The position numbers and the translations under genes are program-made. Of a DNA stretch of 61,212 nucleotides, positions 368-41,040 are shown in pieces (positions within the stretch are counted from its first letter, which is position 1; each line of letters starts with the position of its first letter). The notes under the pieces were generated by a model. That model was not told where the DNA came from, searched no databases, and saw nothing but the letters and a program-made list of their open reading frames with translations. Location of the stretch: NCBI GenBank assembly GCA_012730045.1, contig JAAYBR010000032.1, positions 1-61,212 on the forward strand. The letters are read 5' to 3'. Source of the stretch: Candidatus Hydrogenedentota bacterium. Lineage in GTDB: Bacteria > Hydrogenedentota > Hydrogenedentia > Hydrogenedentales > CAITNO01.

Positions 368-1453
368 ATGCCCGCATCCGAACGCAGGAAGAGACTCCTT
401 GCGGCCTTGGCGCTGGTGGTGTGCTCGTTTTTCTTTGTGTTTCTGGTCTGCGAGGCCGCGTTCCGGATCAAGGGCGCGCTGGGTCCCGTGCCGTTGAGCC
501 CGGAATTGGAGCGCGACGGGGAGCGCGGCTGGCGGACGCGCCCGAACTTCCATTTCTCCGGTGTGAAGAGGGATGCGGCGGGCGCCGAACACCCCGTGGA
601 GATCGTCACCGACGCGAACGGGTTTCGCGCGTTCGGCGACCCCGGTTCCGCCAAGTGCCGCGTGCTCTTCATCGGCGACTCTTTCACCTTCGCCAAGGAC
701 GTGAGCCAGCCGGAGCCCTTCCACGCCGTGGCGGGCAGGATGCTCGATTTGGAGGTCTTCGCCTACGGCGCCGACGGCTACGGAACGCTCCAGGAGTATC
801 TGGTGCTGGACGCGTGGATGGACCGGATACGGCCCCATGTCGTGGTCTGGCAGTTCTGCAGGAATGACTTCATCGGAAACCAGCCGGAACTCACGCGCGC
901 AAGCGCCAAGAACCAGTGCCATGTCGCCCAGCCGTTTCTCTTTGCGGACGGGTCCATTCGCCGCATCAACCCGGGCGAGGGCCGGTGGTCGCAGGGAGTC
1001 CGCCCCCTCCCCTCGGCGCTTCTCCGCTCGCTGGCCTACCGCCTGGACAACCGGAACGGCTTTCCCACCCCGGAGAGCACCGTCGAGAACATCATCGAGA
1101 GAGAGGGGCCCCAGTTTCCGCCTTTCCAGCGGGCGGTGGAGACCACGGAGAGGCTGTTCGAGATAATCCGGGTGCGCTGCGGCGAGACGCCCCTGCTTGT
1201 GTTTGACGTGGAGGCCCGGGAGCCGTATTCGGAGGCGTTCCGTGACATCTGCGTCCGCCGGGGGCTCGTGCGGGTGGAGGGTGTCGCGGAAGCCGTTCAG
1301 CGGGCCGCCGCCTCCGGATCGGTGGTCTTTGCCGAGGATGGGGGGCATTGGAACGCGGAGGGCCACCGGATCTGCGGTGAGCTGCTGGTGGAGGCGCTCC
1401 AGCCCCTCTGCCAGGCGCGCCGAAGCGCGCCGTCTCCGGAGGGCCGGCGGTAG
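368..1453 (+). CDS. Membrane-anchored SGNH/GDSL-type hydrolase
   Basis: The protein has 361 residues. The ATG at 368 is chosen because it is preceded by AAAGG and starts a basic N-terminus followed by one hydrophobic segment (about residues 9-32), a signal anchor or signal peptide. The open frame extends upstream to 56, but that part is low-complexity Arg/Gly and unlikely to be coding. Block I of the SGNH fold is IGDSFT with the nucleophile Ser105, and block V is DGGHWN with Asp324 and His327 completing the triad. Such proteins are esterases or acyl/acetyl transferases acting in the envelope, often on polysaccharides. The substrate is unknown. The gene converges on the epimerase-like gene with only 26 bp between them. 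Confidence 0.8.
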   Translation: MPASERRKRLLAALALVVCSFFFVFLVCEAAFRIKGALGPVPLSPELERDGERGWRTRPNFHFSGVKRDAAGAEHPVEIVTDANGFRAFGDPGSAKCRVLFIGDSFTFAKDVSQPEPFHAVAGRMLDLEVFAYGADGYGTLQEYLVLDAWMDRIRPHVVVWQFCRNDFIGNQPELTRASAKNQCHVAQPFLFADGSIRRINPGEGRWSQGVRPLPSALLRSLAYRLDNRNGFPTPESTVENIIEREGPQFPPFQRAVETTERLFEIIRVRCGETPLLVFDVEAREPYSEAFRDICVRRGLVRVEGVAEAVQRAAASGSVVFAEDGGHWNAEGHRICGELLVEALQPLCQARRSAPSPEGRR

Positions 1454-1479
1454 GGCGAAAACGCGGCGGCCCGCGCCCG

Positions 1480-2172
1480 TCAGGCGATGCGGATGGCGGT
1501 GGAGAGGGCGCCGCGGAACTGGTCGAGGTGGACGCGGCAGGATTCGGGGGTGGTGTCGCGGGCGTCGGGGGGGAGGAGGTCCTCGACGACGACCCCCTGC
1601 GCGCCGAGGCGGGCGGCGCGGCCCATGAGGGCGACGTCGGCGCAGCCGTGGACGATGATCCCGGCGCGAAGCTCCTGGTAGCGGAGGTATTCGCCGAGGA
1701 GTTTGACGCGCTCGGTGACGGGTCCTGCGGCGGCCGCGCCGCCGCCGGGCTCGGCGGACAGGAGGACCACGCGGTCCACCAGCGGAAGAAGATAGTCCGC
1801 CTTGGTCAGGGGGGTGCAGGGGAGCATCGCGATGCCGGGGGACACGCCGAGGTCGCGCAGGCGCCCGAGGGCGCGGTGGGGGTGGGGGCAGCCCTCGAGC
1901 TGGAGGGTGACCCGGGCGCAGCCGAGCCCCGCGAGGGCCTCCAGCACCGCCGACCCGCCGCACACGGGGACGTGCAGATGGCAGGGCAGGGCGGACGCGG
2001 CGGCGGCGGCCCGGACGGTGTCGGCGCCCAGCCCGCGCAGGGGCGTCTCAGACGGGTCGCCCAGGGGCATGAACCATTCGTCGGCGCCCGTGTCCCCCCG
2101 GAGAAACGGCTCCAAGTGAAGCTGGGGAAGGGACGCCGCGGACAGGGAAATCTTCGGTAGGGAATTGGCCAC
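1480..2172 (-). CDS. Ribulose-phosphate 3-epimerase-like protein lacking catalytic residues
   Basis: The protein has 230 residues. The GTG at 2172 is chosen because AGGAG lies 8 nt upstream and the frame further upstream is the shadow of ribokinase. The order of segments follows the RPE TIM barrel: an N-terminal KISLSAA strand, a LHVPV segment where family members have VHLMV, and ATPL-like CTPLTKADYLLPLVD before the phosphate-binding end. The HxDxMDG motif is replaced by WFMPLGD, and the late VDGG motif by VHGC, so both metal-binding catalytic aspartates appear lost. It lies 28 bp downstream of ribokinase, probably in one operon. It may be a non-catalytic or altered-chemistry relative; a true RPE is unlikely. 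Confidence 0.6.
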   Translation of the reverse strand: MANSLPKISLSAASLPQLHLEPFLRGDTGADEWFMPLGDPSETPLRGLGADTVRAAAAASALPCHLHVPVCGGSAVLEALAGLGCARVTLQLEGCPHPHRALGRLRDLGVSPGIAMLPCTPLTKADYLLPLVDRVVLLSAEPGGGAAAAGPVTERVKLLGEYLRYQELRAGIIVHGCADVALMGRAARLGAQGVVVEDLLPPDARDTTPESCRVHLDQFRGALSTAIRIA

Positions 2173-2200
2173 CTCTGTCTTCTCCTCTTGACGAAACCGG

Positions 2201-3130
2201 TCACTCAGCGGGATAGGCCGCCAGAAACGCGTCCACCGCGGCCGCCAGCGGCATGCTGGGCTGGGCCCCCTCGCTCTTGGCGGCCAGCGCCCCGGCGGCG
2301 TTCGCAAAGCGCAGGGTGTCGCGCATGCGGGCGGGGTCCCACCGCAGGGCGAGGGCCGCCGTGAAGGCGTCGCCCGCCGCGGTGGTGTCCACGGCCTCCA
2401 CCGGGAACGCGGGGACGTGCAGCTCGCCCGTCGGGCCGAGGTAGTAGGAGCCGCGGTCGCCGAGCTTGAGGACCACGTGGTCCACGCCCATGTCGAGCAG
2501 CTCCTGGGCCGCCTTGTGCACCCCGTCCATCGTGTCCACGGCGATGCCCGTGAGGGTCTCGGCCTCCGTCTCGTTCGGCGAGACAATGTCGGCCAGGCAC
2601 AGCATGTCAGGGGACAGGTTCCGCGCGGGGCCGGCGTCGAGGATGGCGAGGGCACCGCACTCGCGGGCCATGCGCAGGGAGGCCTCGACGGTGCCCAGGG
2701 GGGTCTCCAGCTGGAGCAGGACGGCGTCGGCGTCCTGGAACACCTCGCGCCGCTCCAGCACGTCGGAGGCGCGCAGGCAGAAGTTCGCGCCCGAAGCCAC
2801 CACAATGCTGCTTTCCCCGGACTCGCCCACCAGGATCATCGCAACCCCCGTGGGGGCGTCGGAGACGGTGCGCACGTGCGACACGTCCACCCCGGAGGCG
2901 GTGAGGCCGTCCAGCTGCTGGCGGCCGAAGAGGTCGTCGCCCACGCAGGCGATGAGGGAGACCTCGCCGCCGAGCCGCGCCGCGGCCACCGCCTGGTTCG
3001 CGCCCTTGCCGCCCGACACCGTCTGGAAGGACTGGCCGATGACGGTTTCACCGGAGCGGGGCATGCGGGACACCCGCAGAACCAGGTCCATGCTGGAGCT
3101 TCCGACGACCAAGACCTTTCTCGCGTCCAT
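2201..3130 (-). CDS. rbsK: Ribokinase (PfkB family)
   Basis: The protein has 309 residues, the usual length for ribokinase. It phosphorylates D-ribose (or a related pentose) at O5 with ATP in the cytoplasm. The N-terminal PfkB signature VVGSSSMDLVLRV is followed by SGGKGANQAVAAARLG, and the C-terminal signature contains DTTAAGDAFTAAL with the catalytic base Asp. The ATG at 3130 is preferred because GGAAGG lies about 9 nt upstream; the ATG at 3139 abuts that ribosome-binding site. A TTGCGG-17-TATAAT promoter lies 70-100 bp upstream. With the epimerase-like gene downstream it forms a pentose operon. Another sugar of the PfkB family cannot be excluded. Confidence 0.9.
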   Translation of the reverse strand: MDARKVLVVGSSSMDLVLRVSRMPRSGETVIGQSFQTVSGGKGANQAVAAARLGGEVSLIACVGDDLFGRQQLDGLTASGVDVSHVRTVSDAPTGVAMILVGESGESSIVVASGANFCLRASDVLERREVFQDADAVLLQLETPLGTVEASLRMARECGALAILDAGPARNLSPDMLCLADIVSPNETEAETLTGIAVDTMDGVHKAAQELLDMGVDHVVLKLGDRGSYYLGPTGELHVPAFPVEAVDTTAAGDAFTAALALRWDPARMRDTLRFANAAGALAAKSEGAQPSMPLAAAVDAFLAAYPAE

Positions 3131-35956: not shown

Positions 35957-36382
35957 TCAGTCCATTCTCTCCGGGGGGGTGACGTCAAACTCGGAGGGGG
36001 TGGCCTCCGCCTCCGGCGCGTCCCCGTCCGTCTCCGCAGAGTCGGGCGGCCTGGCGTAGGGGTCGGCGTCGGAGGTGCTGTCCGCCGCCGTGTCCGCCGC
36101 CGCCGCGCCCTCCGCCGTGACCTCGGGCTTTTTCTCATCGCCCCCCATGAGCGTGTCAATGAGCTTTTCCGGGTCCGTGCGGTTGAGCTTGTCCAGCTCG
36201 CGGCGGAGGGGGTTGATCTCGCGGGCGACGTCCGTCTTCACCTCGTCCATGTACCCGCGGACGTCCTTGAAGGCGCGGAGGAACATCTTGGCGTACTGGG
36301 GGAACTTCTCCGGGCCGAGCACCACGAGGGCGATCACGGCCAGGAAGATCATCTCGCCCATGCCTATGCCCATGTCAAACAT
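35957..36382 (-). CDS. tatB: Sec-independent translocase TatB-like subunit
   Basis: The protein has 141 residues. A short periplasmic N-terminus with MFDMGIGMGE, one membrane helix (about 10-22, IFLAVIALVVL), the hinge GPEKFP and a long amphipathic helix (AKMFLRAFKDVRGYMDEV) define a TatA/B protein. The acidic residue before the helix and the longer helical region favour TatB over TatA. The last 60 residues are disordered, rich in Ala, Asp and Glu. With TatC it recognises twin-arginine signal peptides. It lies 14 bp after tatC. No separate TatA gene is in the window. Confidence 0.88.
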   Translation of the reverse strand: MFDMGIGMGEMIFLAVIALVVLGPEKFPQYAKMFLRAFKDVRGYMDEVKTDVAREINPLRRELDKLNRTDPEKLIDTLMGGDEKKPEVTAEGAAAADTAADSTSDADPYARPPDSAETDGDAPEAEATPSEFDVTPPERMD

Positions 36383-36396
36383 GGAATGACAACTCC

Positions 36397-37248
36397 TCAG
36401 GGGGTTTCGGCCGCGGCGGCCTCTTCATTCTTCTTCTTCCTGCGGAGGACGAGGTAGGACATCCAGATGCTGGCCTCGTAGAGGATCACCAGCGGCAGGA
36501 GCATGATGCTCATGGAGAACACGTCCGGCGGCGTCAGGATGGCCGCGGCGACCGCCATGATGACGATGGCGAACTTGCGGTACTCGCGCAGGGACTGCGG
36601 GGTGAGCAGGCCCATGTAGACCAGCACCAGCACGACCATGGGAAACTGGAACGCGATGGCGAAACCGGCCAGCAGCTTCACGATGATGCTCAGCGTCTCG
36701 GTGACGCGCAGCTGGATCTGCACCCACTCGGGGGTCCATTCCAGCAGGTAGGGGAGGACCAGGGGGAACACGCCGAAATAGGCGACCCCCACGCCGACAA
36801 TGGCGAGGGCGCTGCACCCGCCCGCCAGAATCTGGACCACGCGGCGCTCGTGCGGGAGAAGCCCGGGGAAGACAAAGGCCATGATCTGGTAGAGGATGAA
36901 GGGCAGGGCGAGGAGAAAGCCGCCGTAGCCCGCGATCTTGAACTGGACCACCACAAACTCAATGGGGTTCAGAACGGTCCACTCCATGCTGCGCTTGGGC
37001 TTCTGGTCCGGGGCGGCCGGAGGAGCCGCCGCCGGATCCGTCCCGGCCGCGGGGACGGCCGCCGGAGCGGAGATCATGCCGCGCTCGCCCAGCGGGGCCA
37101 GGGGCCGGGCCAGCTGCTTGAGGATGACGTCTGACAGGGCGTAGCAGAGCAGCACCGCCACAAACAGCGCCATGATGGAGCGGATGATGCGCGTCCGGAG
37201 CTCGCCCAGATGCTCGGTGAACGTCATTCTCTTGTCGTCGTTTTCCAT
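36397..37248 (-). CDS. tatC: Sec-independent translocase TatC
   Basis: The protein has 283 residues. The ATG at 37248 (MENDDKRMTFTEHLGELR) is chosen because it gives the conserved HLGELRTR cytoplasmic N-terminus and has AAGGA upstream. Six membrane helices are visible. Conserved family segments include NPIEFVVVQFKI, ALPFILYQIMAFVFPGLLPHERR and FQFPMVVLVLVYMGLL. The first periplasmic loop carries an extra 30-40 residue Ala/Pro-rich segment (SAPAAVPAAGTDPAAAPPAA) not usual in TatC. The C-terminus is a short Lys/Glu/Ala tail. It receives folded Tat substrates at the inner membrane. Confidence 0.95.
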   Translation of the reverse strand: MENDDKRMTFTEHLGELRTRIIRSIMALFVAVLLCYALSDVILKQLARPLAPLGERGMISAPAAVPAAGTDPAAAPPAAPDQKPKRSMEWTVLNPIEFVVVQFKIAGYGGFLLALPFILYQIMAFVFPGLLPHERRVVQILAGGCSALAIVGVGVAYFGVFPLVLPYLLEWTPEWVQIQLRVTETLSIIVKLLAGFAIAFQFPMVVLVLVYMGLLTPQSLREYRKFAIVIMAVAAAILTPPDVFSMSIMLLPLVILYEASIWMSYLVLRRKKKNEEAAAAETP

Positions 37249-37353
37249 CCGCGGGGGGTTCCTTGGGGCCATGAACCCCCTATTATGGCACACCGCGCGG
37301 TGCCGGGGCGATTCACCGGCGGGAACGGCGGCCGCAGGGTGGCGGGTCCCGCC

Positions 37354-38043
37354 TCAGACGGTGACCCACGCGCCGGGGACGCACTTGTCGCCGAGACGGA
37401 TTCCGAGGTCGGAGCCCTTGACGCTGTCGAAGTCGGCGCCCGCGGCGGGCAGCTGGAAGACCTCGCCGGGCTTGGCGCGGCGCAGCCGCTCGAGGGCGTA
37501 GATGCCCTCGACGGCGGACACCGTGACGCCGGTATCGGCGTTGAGGCGGGCGATCTCGTTGTAGAGGGCCTTGCGGTCCTTGTTCTCCTCGGCGAGGAGC
37601 TTCTGGGCCTCGTTGCGCTTCTCGTTGTCGCCGAGGGCGTCGCACTCGCGCAGCTCGAGGTAGCCGCGGTTGTTCTCGCCGAAGCAGCCGGGGGCCTTGA
37701 AGGCCTCGACGCGCGGGTTGCGGTCGCGCATGCGCACGGCGATTTCCTTGACGAGGGGGGAGGTGGTGACCTTCAGGGTGTCGGCGTGGACGACGCCCAT
37801 GGGGCTGAAGAACTGCAGGACGGCGCGGGCGCGCGACTGCGGCCCGGCGGCGGGCTCGGCCTCGAGGCCGGGCAGGGCGTCCGTCTTGCCCTCGACGAAG
37901 TCCAGCACGTTCTCCGCCTGGGCGGCGATGTGGCGGATGTCGAGGGTGATGTGGGCGTCTATGCGGTGCTCGGTGCGGATGACGCACCCGACGGTGACAA
38001 GAAACAGGGCAACAGCCGCCGCGAGTCCGATTTTCATCCGCAT
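37354..38043 (-). CDS. YnbE-YdbL fusion lipoprotein (DUF1318)
   Basis: The protein has 229 residues. Residues 1-20 form an export signal ending in TVGC, a slightly non-canonical lipobox with Cys20. Residues 20-52 (TEHRIDAHITLDIRHIAAQ) resemble the small lipoprotein YnbE. After a linker, residues about 118-200 match YdbL/DUF1318: FGENNRGYLELRE, then a helix with DRKALYNEIARLNAD, and ARAKPGEY-like RRAKPGEVFQLP. In E. coli YnbE multimerises onto the YdbH tip to complete an inter-membrane lipid bridge, and YdbL modulates YnbE. Here both appear in one chain, directly downstream of the YdbH-like gene in the same order. GAGGA about 8 nt upstream supports the start. Confidence 0.75.
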   Translation of the reverse strand: MRMKIGLAAAVALFLVTVGCVIRTEHRIDAHITLDIRHIAAQAENVLDFVEGKTDALPGLEAEPAAGPQSRARAVLQFFSPMGVVHADTLKVTTSPLVKEIAVRMRDRNPRVEAFKAPGCFGENNRGYLELRECDALGDNEKRNEAQKLLAEENKDRKALYNEIARLNADTGVTVSAVEGIYALERLRRAKPGEVFQLPAAGADFDSVKGSDLGIRLGDKCVPGAWVTV

Positions 38044-38103: not shown

Positions 38104-41040
38104 CTACTGCATCCCGTCCGGATTCGCCACCTCCGCCGACGCGCCGTCGCGGCCCGCCCGCAGCGCCTCCAGCAGCGCCGCCGGATCAGCCTTGATGTCC
38201 ATCGTCAGGTTCAGGTCGCGGCTCTCCAGCCGGGCCACCCCCTCGATGCGCCCGTCGCGCAGGGCAAGGGTCAGCACCGCCGCGTCAAAGGCCCGCTGGG
38301 GGTCGTCGCCGAGCACGTCGCGGATCAGGGCGGTCACCTGTTTCCCGCCGGTCATGGTGGTCACATACTGGCTCGTCAGGAGCTGCTCCACCATGTCCTT
38401 GTTCAGCGAGAAGCCGCTGGACGCCGCCAGGTCCACATGCAGGTCGGCCAGTTTCGCGTCGCGCACCAGCAAATCCGCCGTACCGCCGACGCGGCCCGTC
38501 AGCACGACCGACGGCGGCTTAAACTCCTGCGTGAACACGGCCAAATCCACGTCGCTGACGGTCATGTCCACCCTCAGGGGCATGCCCTCGTCAACAAGCG
38601 CCGCCGTTCCGGTCATTCCCACGCTGCCGCCGAAGACGGCCGCGGTGGCCTCCTCCAGCAGGACTGTGCCGTTTTCCACACGCGTTTTTCCCGCAATGGC
38701 CGACCAGCGGGTGCCCGCGACGGTGCAGGATTCGGCGGAAAGCGCGCCCGCCCCAGCCCACCCGCTGTCGGAGCAATACAACTGTCCCGAGGCGGCGACG
38801 CCCTCCAGCGCGGCGTCCACCGCCGACAACACCAGACGAGGGAAGGCGGCGCTGTATTCAACGGGCGCGGACCCCTGCGCCGCCGTGCCGCCGAACGCCA
38901 GGGCGCCGCAGTGGGCCTCCGCGCGGCCCTCGGCCTCGCGCAGCCAGCCCTTGGACACCAGCGGCCCCAGCCCCGTCTCGAAGGAAAGGCCGCCAAGGAC
39001 GGCCAGGCCCTCCTGCCAGCCGGCGCTCTCGAGAGTGAAAAGGGTGTCCTCCCCGAGGGCGGCGCGGACCGTGCCCGCATGCAGGCGCAGCGGCGACGGG
39101 ACGGCGCGCAGGTCGGCGGACAGGGTGGTCTCCATGCCGTAGGGGAGGGACCAGCCGCCGTAGCCCAGCGCCTCCAGTGTGACCGTCACCGGCGCGGTGA
39201 GGTCGCCCTTGGCATCCCGGCTCCCCTTCGCGGAGGCCCGGAGCGTGCCCCACAAGTCCGGGAACCCGGCAAGCTTCGCCCAGGGGCCCAGTTCCGTCTC
39301 GATGGTGAGGTCGCCGGAAGCCGCGCCTGTTCCGGGCGCAAACCGCAGCTTCTCCGCCGTCGCGCGCGCCGCATCGCCGAAGGCCGCCGACAACGAGCCG
39401 GTCACCGCGTCCGGCGTTCCCGAGAGGGATGCCTGAAGGGACAGGGGCCAGTCGTCGGGCAGCGCCGCGCCGCCCCAGCCCGGCGGCGGCGCGGTCAGGG
39501 TTCCCTGGACGGTCCATCCACCCGCCGCCGGCAGGGAGACCGCCACCGGGCCGTCCAGCGCGAGCGCCAGCGGGTCCAAAAGTCCGGACCCCGTGATCCC
39601 GCGCCACCACGCGGCGGGCGCGAGCTTGGAAAGCGCCGCGTCCAGCGAAACGCCCGCGTCACCGTATTTCATTTTGGCGGTTGCCGACCCGTCGCCGAGG
39701 TGCGCGGCGGCGGCGCCTTCGACCCCCTCCTGTCCTGCGGCGCGGACCGCTGAAAACTCCACGGTGGCGGTGTCTGCGGCCAGCGCGGCGGACGCGGTTC
39801 CGGCAAGGTTCAGCCCCTCCGGCGAGGAGACCATCTCCGCGTTCCCGGTCACGGATTTCAGGCCGGGAATCCGCGCCAGCGCGGCGGCGGCGGGAACGGC
39901 CCCGCCCAGCGCGCCCACGGGGAGCTCCTTCACCCCTGCCCGCACGGACAGGCGGGACGCCGCGGCGTCCTGCGCCACGGACAGCGTCAGCGGCGGCAGG
40001 TTTCCAAACGTCACCGACCCGCCAAACGCACCGGGCGCTTCGCCGGGGGCAATGTCCACGGCGAGGTCGCCGGCGGCCCAGGGGGTCTCCAGCGGCCCGA
40101 CGCGCAATCCGGGCACCGCGGCGCGCAGCGCCAGCGTGTCCAGCGCGGGCGCCCCGCCGCGCCACGCGGCGGCCAGCTTCCCCTGTTCCACGTTCACCGA
40201 GGAAAACGCCACAGGGAGGAACGACCCCGCCAGCCGCCCCCACTCGGGGCGGTTCAGCGCGAGCCGCGCGAGGGAGACGCGGAGTTCCCGGTCGCCGCCG
40301 GCGGTGCGCGTCTCCAGGGAGAGGTCCGCGGCGTCCCCGGCCTCCGGGCTGTCATAGCGGAGCGACGCCGACGCGCCGTCGGCGCGCAGCTCGGCGGAGA
40401 AGGCGGCCTGCTCGCGCAGGCCCGTGAGCCGGGCAAGCGTCTCGCCCCCCCGCTCCAGGATCATGTCGCCGTCCAGCCCCACCCCGCCGGAATACGCGGT
40501 GGACGAGGCGAGGGAGACATCGGCCTTCAGCCCGTTGAGCTGAAGCCGGACGCCGCCGTGCCCCGACACGTGCACCGCGCCCCCGGTCACCCGGACCTGC
40601 CGGGGCACAAAGCGCTCAATGTCCCAGCCGCTGGAGGGTTGCGCCAGAAAGCGCAGCAGGAAGCCGTAGTTGGCCGCCCCGTCGTCGGCGCGCACCAGCG
40701 ACAGGATCGGCCGGCGCACCGCCAGGTCGCCGAAGAGCCGGCCCTGTTCCGGCGAAAAGGACAGCGTCATCTCCTCCGCCGTGAGCAGGCACGGCAGGGG
40801 CACCTCGGGATCGCGGACGTTCAGATGGGTGACCTGCGCCCCGCCCTGACCCAGGTGCAGCCGTCCCGACACCCGCCCCCCGAGGAAATCCCCGGCCAGC
40901 TTGAAGGCCGCGCGGTGCGGAAGTCCCCCCATCCACGCCGCCCCGGCGAGCAGGGCAAGCACGAGCAGCGCGCGGAGGACGCGCCGACGCGGCCGCGCCG
41001 GGGATTCGGTGCGTTTGTCAGGGACAGACGGCTGATCCAT
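38104..41040 (-). CDS. YdbH-like AsmA-superfamily inter-membrane lipid transport protein
   Basis: The protein has 978 residues. A cytoplasmic Arg-rich N-terminus is followed by one membrane helix (about 22-40, VLRALLVLALLAGAAWMGG); the rest is a long periplasmic beta-rich repeat body, as in AsmA-like bridge proteins. The C-terminal 250 residues, with VVLTGRVGGTADLLVRDAKL, SGFSLNKDMVEQLL and LALRDGRIEGVARLESRDL, follow the pattern of YdbH/dicarboxylate-transport-domain proteins. It should span the periplasm and pass phospholipid to the outer membrane. The YnbE-YdbL fusion starts 60 bp downstream. The overall sequence is diverged, so the assignment leans on architecture and neighbour. Confidence 0.7.
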   Translation of the reverse strand: MDQPSVPDKRTESPARPRRRVLRALLVLALLAGAAWMGGLPHRAAFKLAGDFLGGRVSGRLHLGQGGAQVTHLNVRDPEVPLPCLLTAEEMTLSFSPEQGRLFGDLAVRRPILSLVRADDGAANYGFLLRFLAQPSSGWDIERFVPRQVRVTGGAVHVSGHGGVRLQLNGLKADVSLASSTAYSGGVGLDGDMILERGGETLARLTGLREQAAFSAELRADGASASLRYDSPEAGDAADLSLETRTAGGDRELRVSLARLALNRPEWGRLAGSFLPVAFSSVNVEQGKLAAAWRGGAPALDTLALRAAVPGLRVGPLETPWAAGDLAVDIAPGEAPGAFGGSVTFGNLPPLTLSVAQDAAASRLSVRAGVKELPVGALGGAVPAAAALARIPGLKSVTGNAEMVSSPEGLNLAGTASAALAADTATVEFSAVRAAGQEGVEGAAAAHLGDGSATAKMKYGDAGVSLDAALSKLAPAAWWRGITGSGLLDPLALALDGPVAVSLPAAGGWTVQGTLTAPPPGWGGAALPDDWPLSLQASLSGTPDAVTGSLSAAFGDAARATAEKLRFAPGTGAASGDLTIETELGPWAKLAGFPDLWGTLRASAKGSRDAKGDLTAPVTVTLEALGYGGWSLPYGMETTLSADLRAVPSPLRLHAGTVRAALGEDTLFTLESAGWQEGLAVLGGLSFETGLGPLVSKGWLREAEGRAEAHCGALAFGGTAAQGSAPVEYSAAFPRLVLSAVDAALEGVAASGQLYCSDSGWAGAGALSAESCTVAGTRWSAIAGKTRVENGTVLLEEATAAVFGGSVGMTGTAALVDEGMPLRVDMTVSDVDLAVFTQEFKPPSVVLTGRVGGTADLLVRDAKLADLHVDLAASSGFSLNKDMVEQLLTSQYVTTMTGGKQVTALIRDVLGDDPQRAFDAAVLTLALRDGRIEGVARLESRDLNLTMDIKADPAALLEALRAGRDGASAEVANPDGMQ

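Follow-up and report, generated by a model that had tools for sequence, protein, structure and literature searches.

The locus examined here raises the question of why an outer-membrane lipoprotein and a periplasmic protein that are separate in E. coli should be encoded as one polypeptide in Candidatus Hydrogenedentota, and what this union may say about the way in which they act. According to published accounts, the E. coli ydbH-ynbE-ydbL locus encodes the AsmA-superfamily bridge YdbH, the outer-membrane lipoprotein YnbE and the periplasmic YdbL (PMC12977461; PMC11784454; PMC12045153), and YnbE was reported to interact with YdbH (PMC12977461; PMC12045153). The function of YdbL is barely known, and in the literature that was searched DUF1318 appears in one paper. 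No description of a YnbE-YdbL fusion was found in the literature on YnbE and YdbL, a search that Kumar et al. (2024) lay outside, and the fusion is provisionally regarded as new.

Within the window, namely the whole stretch of 61,212 nucleotides that was analysed, a 229-aa open reading frame runs from 38043 to 37354 on the minus strand with no internal stop, and the 978-aa open reading frame of a putative bridge protein (41040 to 38104) ends 60 bp before it on the same strand. The original prediction of an exported 229-residue protein, placed in a ydbH-ynbE-ydbL-like gene order, was borne out by this uninterrupted frame with its signal peptide and lipobox, and by the AsmA-superfamily frame directly upstream. 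The features are as follows.

38104..41040, minus strand: AsmA-superfamily bridge protein, 978 aa, with a membrane helix near the N-terminus (residues 19-37) and nearly uninterrupted beta-sheet after it
37354..38043, minus strand: fusion gene, YnbE-like lipoprotein plus YdbL/DUF1318, 229 aa, stop codon at 37354-37356
37984..38043, minus strand: signal peptide and lipobox cysteine, residues 1-20 (...VTVGC), C20 being invariant in 44/44 orthologues
37930..37983, minus strand: YnbE-like beta-strand motif, residues 21-38, VIRTEHRIDAHITLDIRH, with a profile match via Verrucomicrobiota YnbE-like proteins, degenerate in bridge-less genomes
37888..37929, minus strand: helix-like stretch, residues 39-52, IAAQAENVLDFVEG, retained where the strand is lost
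37783..37842, minus strand: linker, residues 68-87, with a signal-peptidase-I-like V-H-A as its last residues (in most orthologues A-x-A), A87 in 44/44, likely a relic of a ydbL signal peptide
37447..37725, minus strand: YdbL/DUF1318 domain PF07027, residues 107-199, a Pfam match, with a C-terminal extension to residue 229

As judged from the sequence, the C-terminal half is certain to be DUF1318/YdbL. PF07027 matches residues 107-199, where residues 118-200 had been proposed, with E=1.2e-12 and 48.6 bits (cut-off 27), and it matches all 44 aligned full-length orthologues as well. Whereas E. coli YdbL is free in the periplasm and carries its own signal peptide, DUF1318 is here part of a lipoprotein frame. 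The fusion occurs in 61 of the 68 Candidatus Hydrogenedentota genomes, several of the matches being partial or diverged, and therefore a sequencing artefact is ruled out. The 44 full-length orthologues have a mean column identity of 54%, with C20, R37, A87, E123, R126, G127, N154, R157, G193, P199 and W226 invariant. After C20, an alternating stretch, HRIDAHITLDIRH, precedes the helix-like segment, and in this strand A30, D35, I36 and H38 are nearly invariant around the invariant R37. The cysteines C120, C134 and C221 are common to many but not all orthologues and could form a disulphide or a metal site. Additionally, genes that by-eye reading of the sequence suggests to be TatC-like and TatA/B-like lie at 35957-37293 of the window, about 60 bp downstream of the fusion gene on the same strand, and perhaps belong to one operon with it.

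The 978-aa protein belongs to the AsmA superfamily by profile similarity and by its long beta-sheet with an N-terminal membrane helix. Its C-terminal 185 aa are AsmA-superfamily in profile comparison, and this C-terminal profile matched an alignment of YdbH C-termini with P=1e-5 over 156 columns (score 42.2 vs a shuffled maximum of 20.6). In the AlphaFold2 model (pLDDT 80.5) the bridge is built entirely of beta-structure apart from a single membrane helix. The PDB entries closest to it in shape are ApoB100, a lipid carrier (E=1e-4), and LptD, which are only supportive because the TM-scores are low. However, E. coli YhjG, compared as a whole protein, is matched by the bridge profile as well as YdbH is (P=1e-6), and PF11739, the Pfam model of YdbH, found no match in the 978-aa protein at E 10, so that its identification as YdbH by sequence was rejected. 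The earlier naming of this protein as YdbH-like therefore stands for its superfamily, position and partner, but not for its sequence family.

The YnbE-like nature ascribed to residues 20-52 proved harder to trace. PF13617, the Pfam model of YnbE, matched none of the 44 orthologues and gave no match in the genome up to an E-value of 10, and the direct profile comparison of the fusion N-terminus with eight proteobacterial YnbE sequences was not significant, with 12 of 150 shuffles scoring equally high. The connection runs instead through Verrucomicrobiota: in profile-profile comparison the fusion N-terminus matched 26 Verrucomicrobiota YnbE-like sequences with a probability of 71% and E 3.6e-5, and these in turn matched proteobacterial YnbE with a probability of 92% and E 5e-7, in both cases with 0 of 150 shuffles reaching the score. 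The comparisons between Hydrogenedentota and Verrucomicrobiota excluded the cysteine and the signal peptide and took column shuffles as the null. In keeping with a YnbE-type protein, the fusion has a lipobox with an invariant C20, and the AsmA-superfamily bridge gene lies immediately upstream in most genomes. Residues 21-52 are therefore likely, but not certain, to be homologous to YnbE, because the match depends on an intermediate.

The Verrucomicrobiota also provide both arrangements of the two halves. DUF1318 was found in 59 of 145 Verrucomicrobiota genomes, and among 30 loci the split form is the commoner, with 24 split and six fused (L168, L173, L177, L183, L186, L188); the fusion has therefore probably arisen more than once. 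A short lipoprotein, e.g. C-IRTDNTVDVKPIEIKPVHITLDINIRIEKALDDFFGDLDAL, directly precedes the ydbL-like gene in this phylum. In the Opitutaceae locus L146, the sole one read with long flanks, the ynbE-like gene is situated between the AsmA-like and ydbL-like genes, downstream of a 1061-aa protein; the ynbE-like and ydbL-like genes share a frame and lie 24 nt apart, and the signal peptide of the latter takes the position of the Hydrogenedentota linker. L146 is a split intermediate of the fusion. The Verrucomicrobiota pairs (L146, L164) and fusions resemble Hydrogenedentota in the strand motif HIT[LI]D[IV], in DUF1318 and in the occurrence of split and fused forms, but differ in being mostly split and in that their fused forms are without the A-x-A linker.

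What the strand is for is indicated by genomes that have lost it. An intact strand together with a bridge C-terminus was found in 47 genomes, while 10 genomes have a degenerate strand and retain the DUF1318 lipoprotein; none of these 10 has a strong bridge match, one of them (G002) giving a single marginal match (E=5e-6). An intact strand without a bridge match occurs in four genomes, of which G031 (95% complete) has the gene truncated at the end of a contig and G042, G056 and G062 are 63-82% complete. The association of strand and bridge has a Fisher p of about 1e-8 by genome and 5e-5 by genus, values that include no correction for shared ancestry. The ten degenerate-strand genomes fall in five taxonomic groups (f1/g3, f2, f7/g19, f11/g29, f11/g32), and the tree scatters their loci over at least two places by strongly supported branches and probably over five. 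What the strand-less proteins retain is the lipobox, the helix and the DUF1318 domain. In six bridge-less genomes (G002, G003, G008, G046, G047, G050) the transglutaminase-like gene that in other genomes stands before the bridge directly adjoins the DUF1318 gene, and the simplest reading is that the bridge gene was removed in place and the strand then decayed. That the degenerate loci are an unrelated paralogue is not favoured, since six of them adjoin the same transglutaminase-like gene and the tree scatters them. The bridge-less genomes thus serve as a natural knock-out in which the strand is gone and DUF1318 is kept. Because strand and bridge are lost together while DUF1318 is retained, we infer that the bridge is what the strand is kept for and that DUF1318 is also useful independently of YnbE and bridge. 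Its survival in about five lineages that have neither strand nor bridge makes it probable that its role goes beyond modulating YnbE.

Based on these findings, we consider it probable that the locus is a two-gene version of E. coli ydbH-ynbE-ydbL, in which a bridge, a docking strand and a DUF1318 cap work together and the last two were fused by loss of a stop codon. Like the E. coli locus, it has the bridge first, then a lipoprotein with a strand and a short helix, and DUF1318 last; unlike it, YnbE and YdbL form one polypeptide, PF11739 does not identify the bridge as YdbH, the DUF1318 part carries an additional C-terminal insertion, and the upstream gene is transglutaminase-like in many genomes. 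The single frame, the lipobox, the DUF1318 domain, the AsmA-superfamily neighbour and the co-loss are established. The 978-aa bridge is predicted to be anchored in the inner membrane and to span the periplasm with a long, hydrophobic groove of beta-structure, while the 229-aa protein would be exported and receive its lipid at C20, its presumed destination being the outer membrane. Strand residues 21-38 could then add to the groove edge at the bridge C-terminus and so anchor the bridge to the outer membrane, a docking that is suggested by E. coli YnbE and by the co-loss with the bridge gene. Kumar, Davis and Ruiz (PNAS, 2024) are said to have found that YdbL of E. coli acts in a chaperone-like manner against runaway stacking of YnbE strands. 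DUF1318, covalently joined at birth, may be a built-in cap, its bulk or a direct contact stopping endless strand stacking; with each strand carrying a domain of about 120 residues, long stacks would already be hindered by its presence, which provides a simple rationale for the fusion if the protein stays uncut. The fusion itself may have originated when neighbouring ynbE and ydbL genes in one frame lost the stop that separated them, which left a cleavage motif in the linker, and the linker is probably the relic of the ydbL signal peptide, with this motif kept and the hydrophobic core lost.

The structure prediction proposed for the fusion with the bridge C-terminus was run in an approximate form, as an AlphaFold2 read-through model from the bridge C-terminus into the fusion with 10 natural paired rows, taken from loci where the two genes share a frame, the stop codons being read as Ser as a modelling device. 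In this model the DUF1318 domain is confident (pLDDT about 90), but the strand is undocked and disordered with pLDDT below 50, and a Foldseek search with the model found no match. A direct interaction of YnbE with YdbL, which had been argued from the fusion, is made plausible by the recurrence of the fusion in separate lineages.

Other explanations of the locus have to be weighed against the two-gene reading. The stretch 21-52 might be an ordinary lipoprotein spacer with a chance resemblance to YnbE, DUF1318 being all that the protein has in common with the ydb system, as the missing Pfam YnbE match and the non-significant direct YnbE comparison would allow; however, the Verrucomicrobiota YnbE-like match lies far above the shuffles, the strand is strongly constrained at R37 and its nearly invariant neighbours, and it decays exactly where the bridge is missing. 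With the Verrucomicrobiota link and the co-loss with the bridge speaking against it, chance resemblance was rejected as very improbable. It is also quite unlikely that the DUF1318 half works mainly with the upstream transglutaminase-like protein in another envelope task, the docking strand being an option that lets the module ride the bridge. Such an exported protein (PF01841, E=7e-19) is found in 65 of the 68 Hydrogenedentota genomes, at least 25 of the intact genomes have its gene upstream of the bridge on a shared contig, and the DUF1318 lipoprotein remains its neighbour once bridge and strand have gone. Nevertheless, the gene is on another contig in several genomes, including that of the window, the loci read from other phyla showed no comparable pairing, and E. 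coli has no such neighbour.

The linker bears on whether the two halves stay joined at all. At its end in the 44 orthologues, A87 (position -1) is found in every one, position -3 is A in 37 and V in six (43/44), P81 (position -7) is present in 41, and the residue after A87 is limited to A, D, Q, E or S, in a linker that is otherwise variable. Signal peptidase I recognises A-x-A/V-x-A with a permitted +1 residue, and 43 of the 44 orthologues carry this motif at -3/-1 and +1. Moreover, the site coincides with the end of the signal peptide in separate YdbL proteins, and A-x-A also stands before DUF1318 in long lipoproteins of Acidobacteriota, Desulfobacterota, Aquificota and Gammaproteobacteria. 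The protein might thus be a processed precursor, its N-terminus trimmed by lipoprotein signal peptidase and the chain cut after A87 by signal peptidase I, giving a YnbE-like lipopeptide and free YdbL in equal numbers that work apart as in E. coli. We regard this as possible but on the whole doubtful: the stretch before A87 is without the hydrophobic core of a signal peptidase I substrate and, with a median maximum 10-residue Kyte-Doolittle mean of 0.72 vs 2.73 for the N-terminal signal peptide, is too weakly hydrophobic for a working signal peptide; the motif is absent from the Verrucomicrobiota fusions; and its retention could be structural. The linker motif was lost in eight of the 10 strand-less proteins, one of which (L056) was scored as motif-less by eye, its pattern match falling in the helix. 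The motif may either still be cut or be required for the structure. Since a canonical signal-peptidase-I-type motif stands between the halves, the mature form may consist of two separate chains, and the claim that tethering fixes the stoichiometry of YnbE and its modulator is left open, the more so as the DUF1318 half outlives strand and bridge. Since the Verrucomicrobiota fusions are without the linker motif, a permanent tether is at least tolerated in that phylum. An extended form, which we hold to be unlikely, would have the docking lipopeptide and its chaperone-like helper made as one precursor cut by signal peptidase I at a phylum-wide conserved internal site, an unusual polyprotein-like route with exact 1:1 periplasmic supply, with YdbL/DUF1318 having a second role that outlasts the bridge.

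Through the fusions, YnbE and YdbL are physically linked in separate lineages; taken together, the fusions and the bridge-less genomes make it testable whether YdbL acts on YnbE in cis and whether it acts without YnbE. The fused construct is also offered for structural work on how AsmA-superfamily bridges are attached to the outer membrane, and the system is extended to phyla in which it is unannotated. The long DUF1318 lipoproteins of Gammaproteobacteria, Desulfobacterota, Acidobacteriota and Aquificota (C-V-T-I-N-V-Y-F-P...) have, as in Hydrogenedentota, a lipobox, a short strand, a helix, an A-x-A linker and DUF1318, and in most loci read they follow a protein of 480-1140 aa with a C-terminus to which the bridge profile matches. 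However, their strand has no significant YnbE match and a weak match to that of Hydrogenedentota (E 0.002, 1 of 150 shuffles), and some, e.g. L127, have no bridge-like protein upstream.

Several smaller observations concern the neighbourhood of DUF1318 genes. At L123-L158, most of the long DUF1318 lipoproteins come after a protein that is without annotation and is conserved at its C-terminus, e.g. YYLVKGGGLPRIDVIGYNRRVDWPELLIRLKR, and the two are possibly an undescribed bridge/lipoprotein pair. The transglutaminase-like gene, which is regularly found upstream of the bridge gene or, where that is lost, of the DUF1318 gene, lies upstream of the DUF1318 gene at L062, L063, L054, L056 and L058, and at L059 (oriented 926-3100) the transglutaminase-like and DUF1318 lipoprotein genes form a single frame of 725 codons with an internal signal-peptide-like stretch, which is either a fusion or an assembly error. 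Some Hydrogenedentota genomes also have a second, distant DUF1318-like lipoprotein (L065-L069), whose gene in several loci adjoins one with a GGDEF-like C-terminus.
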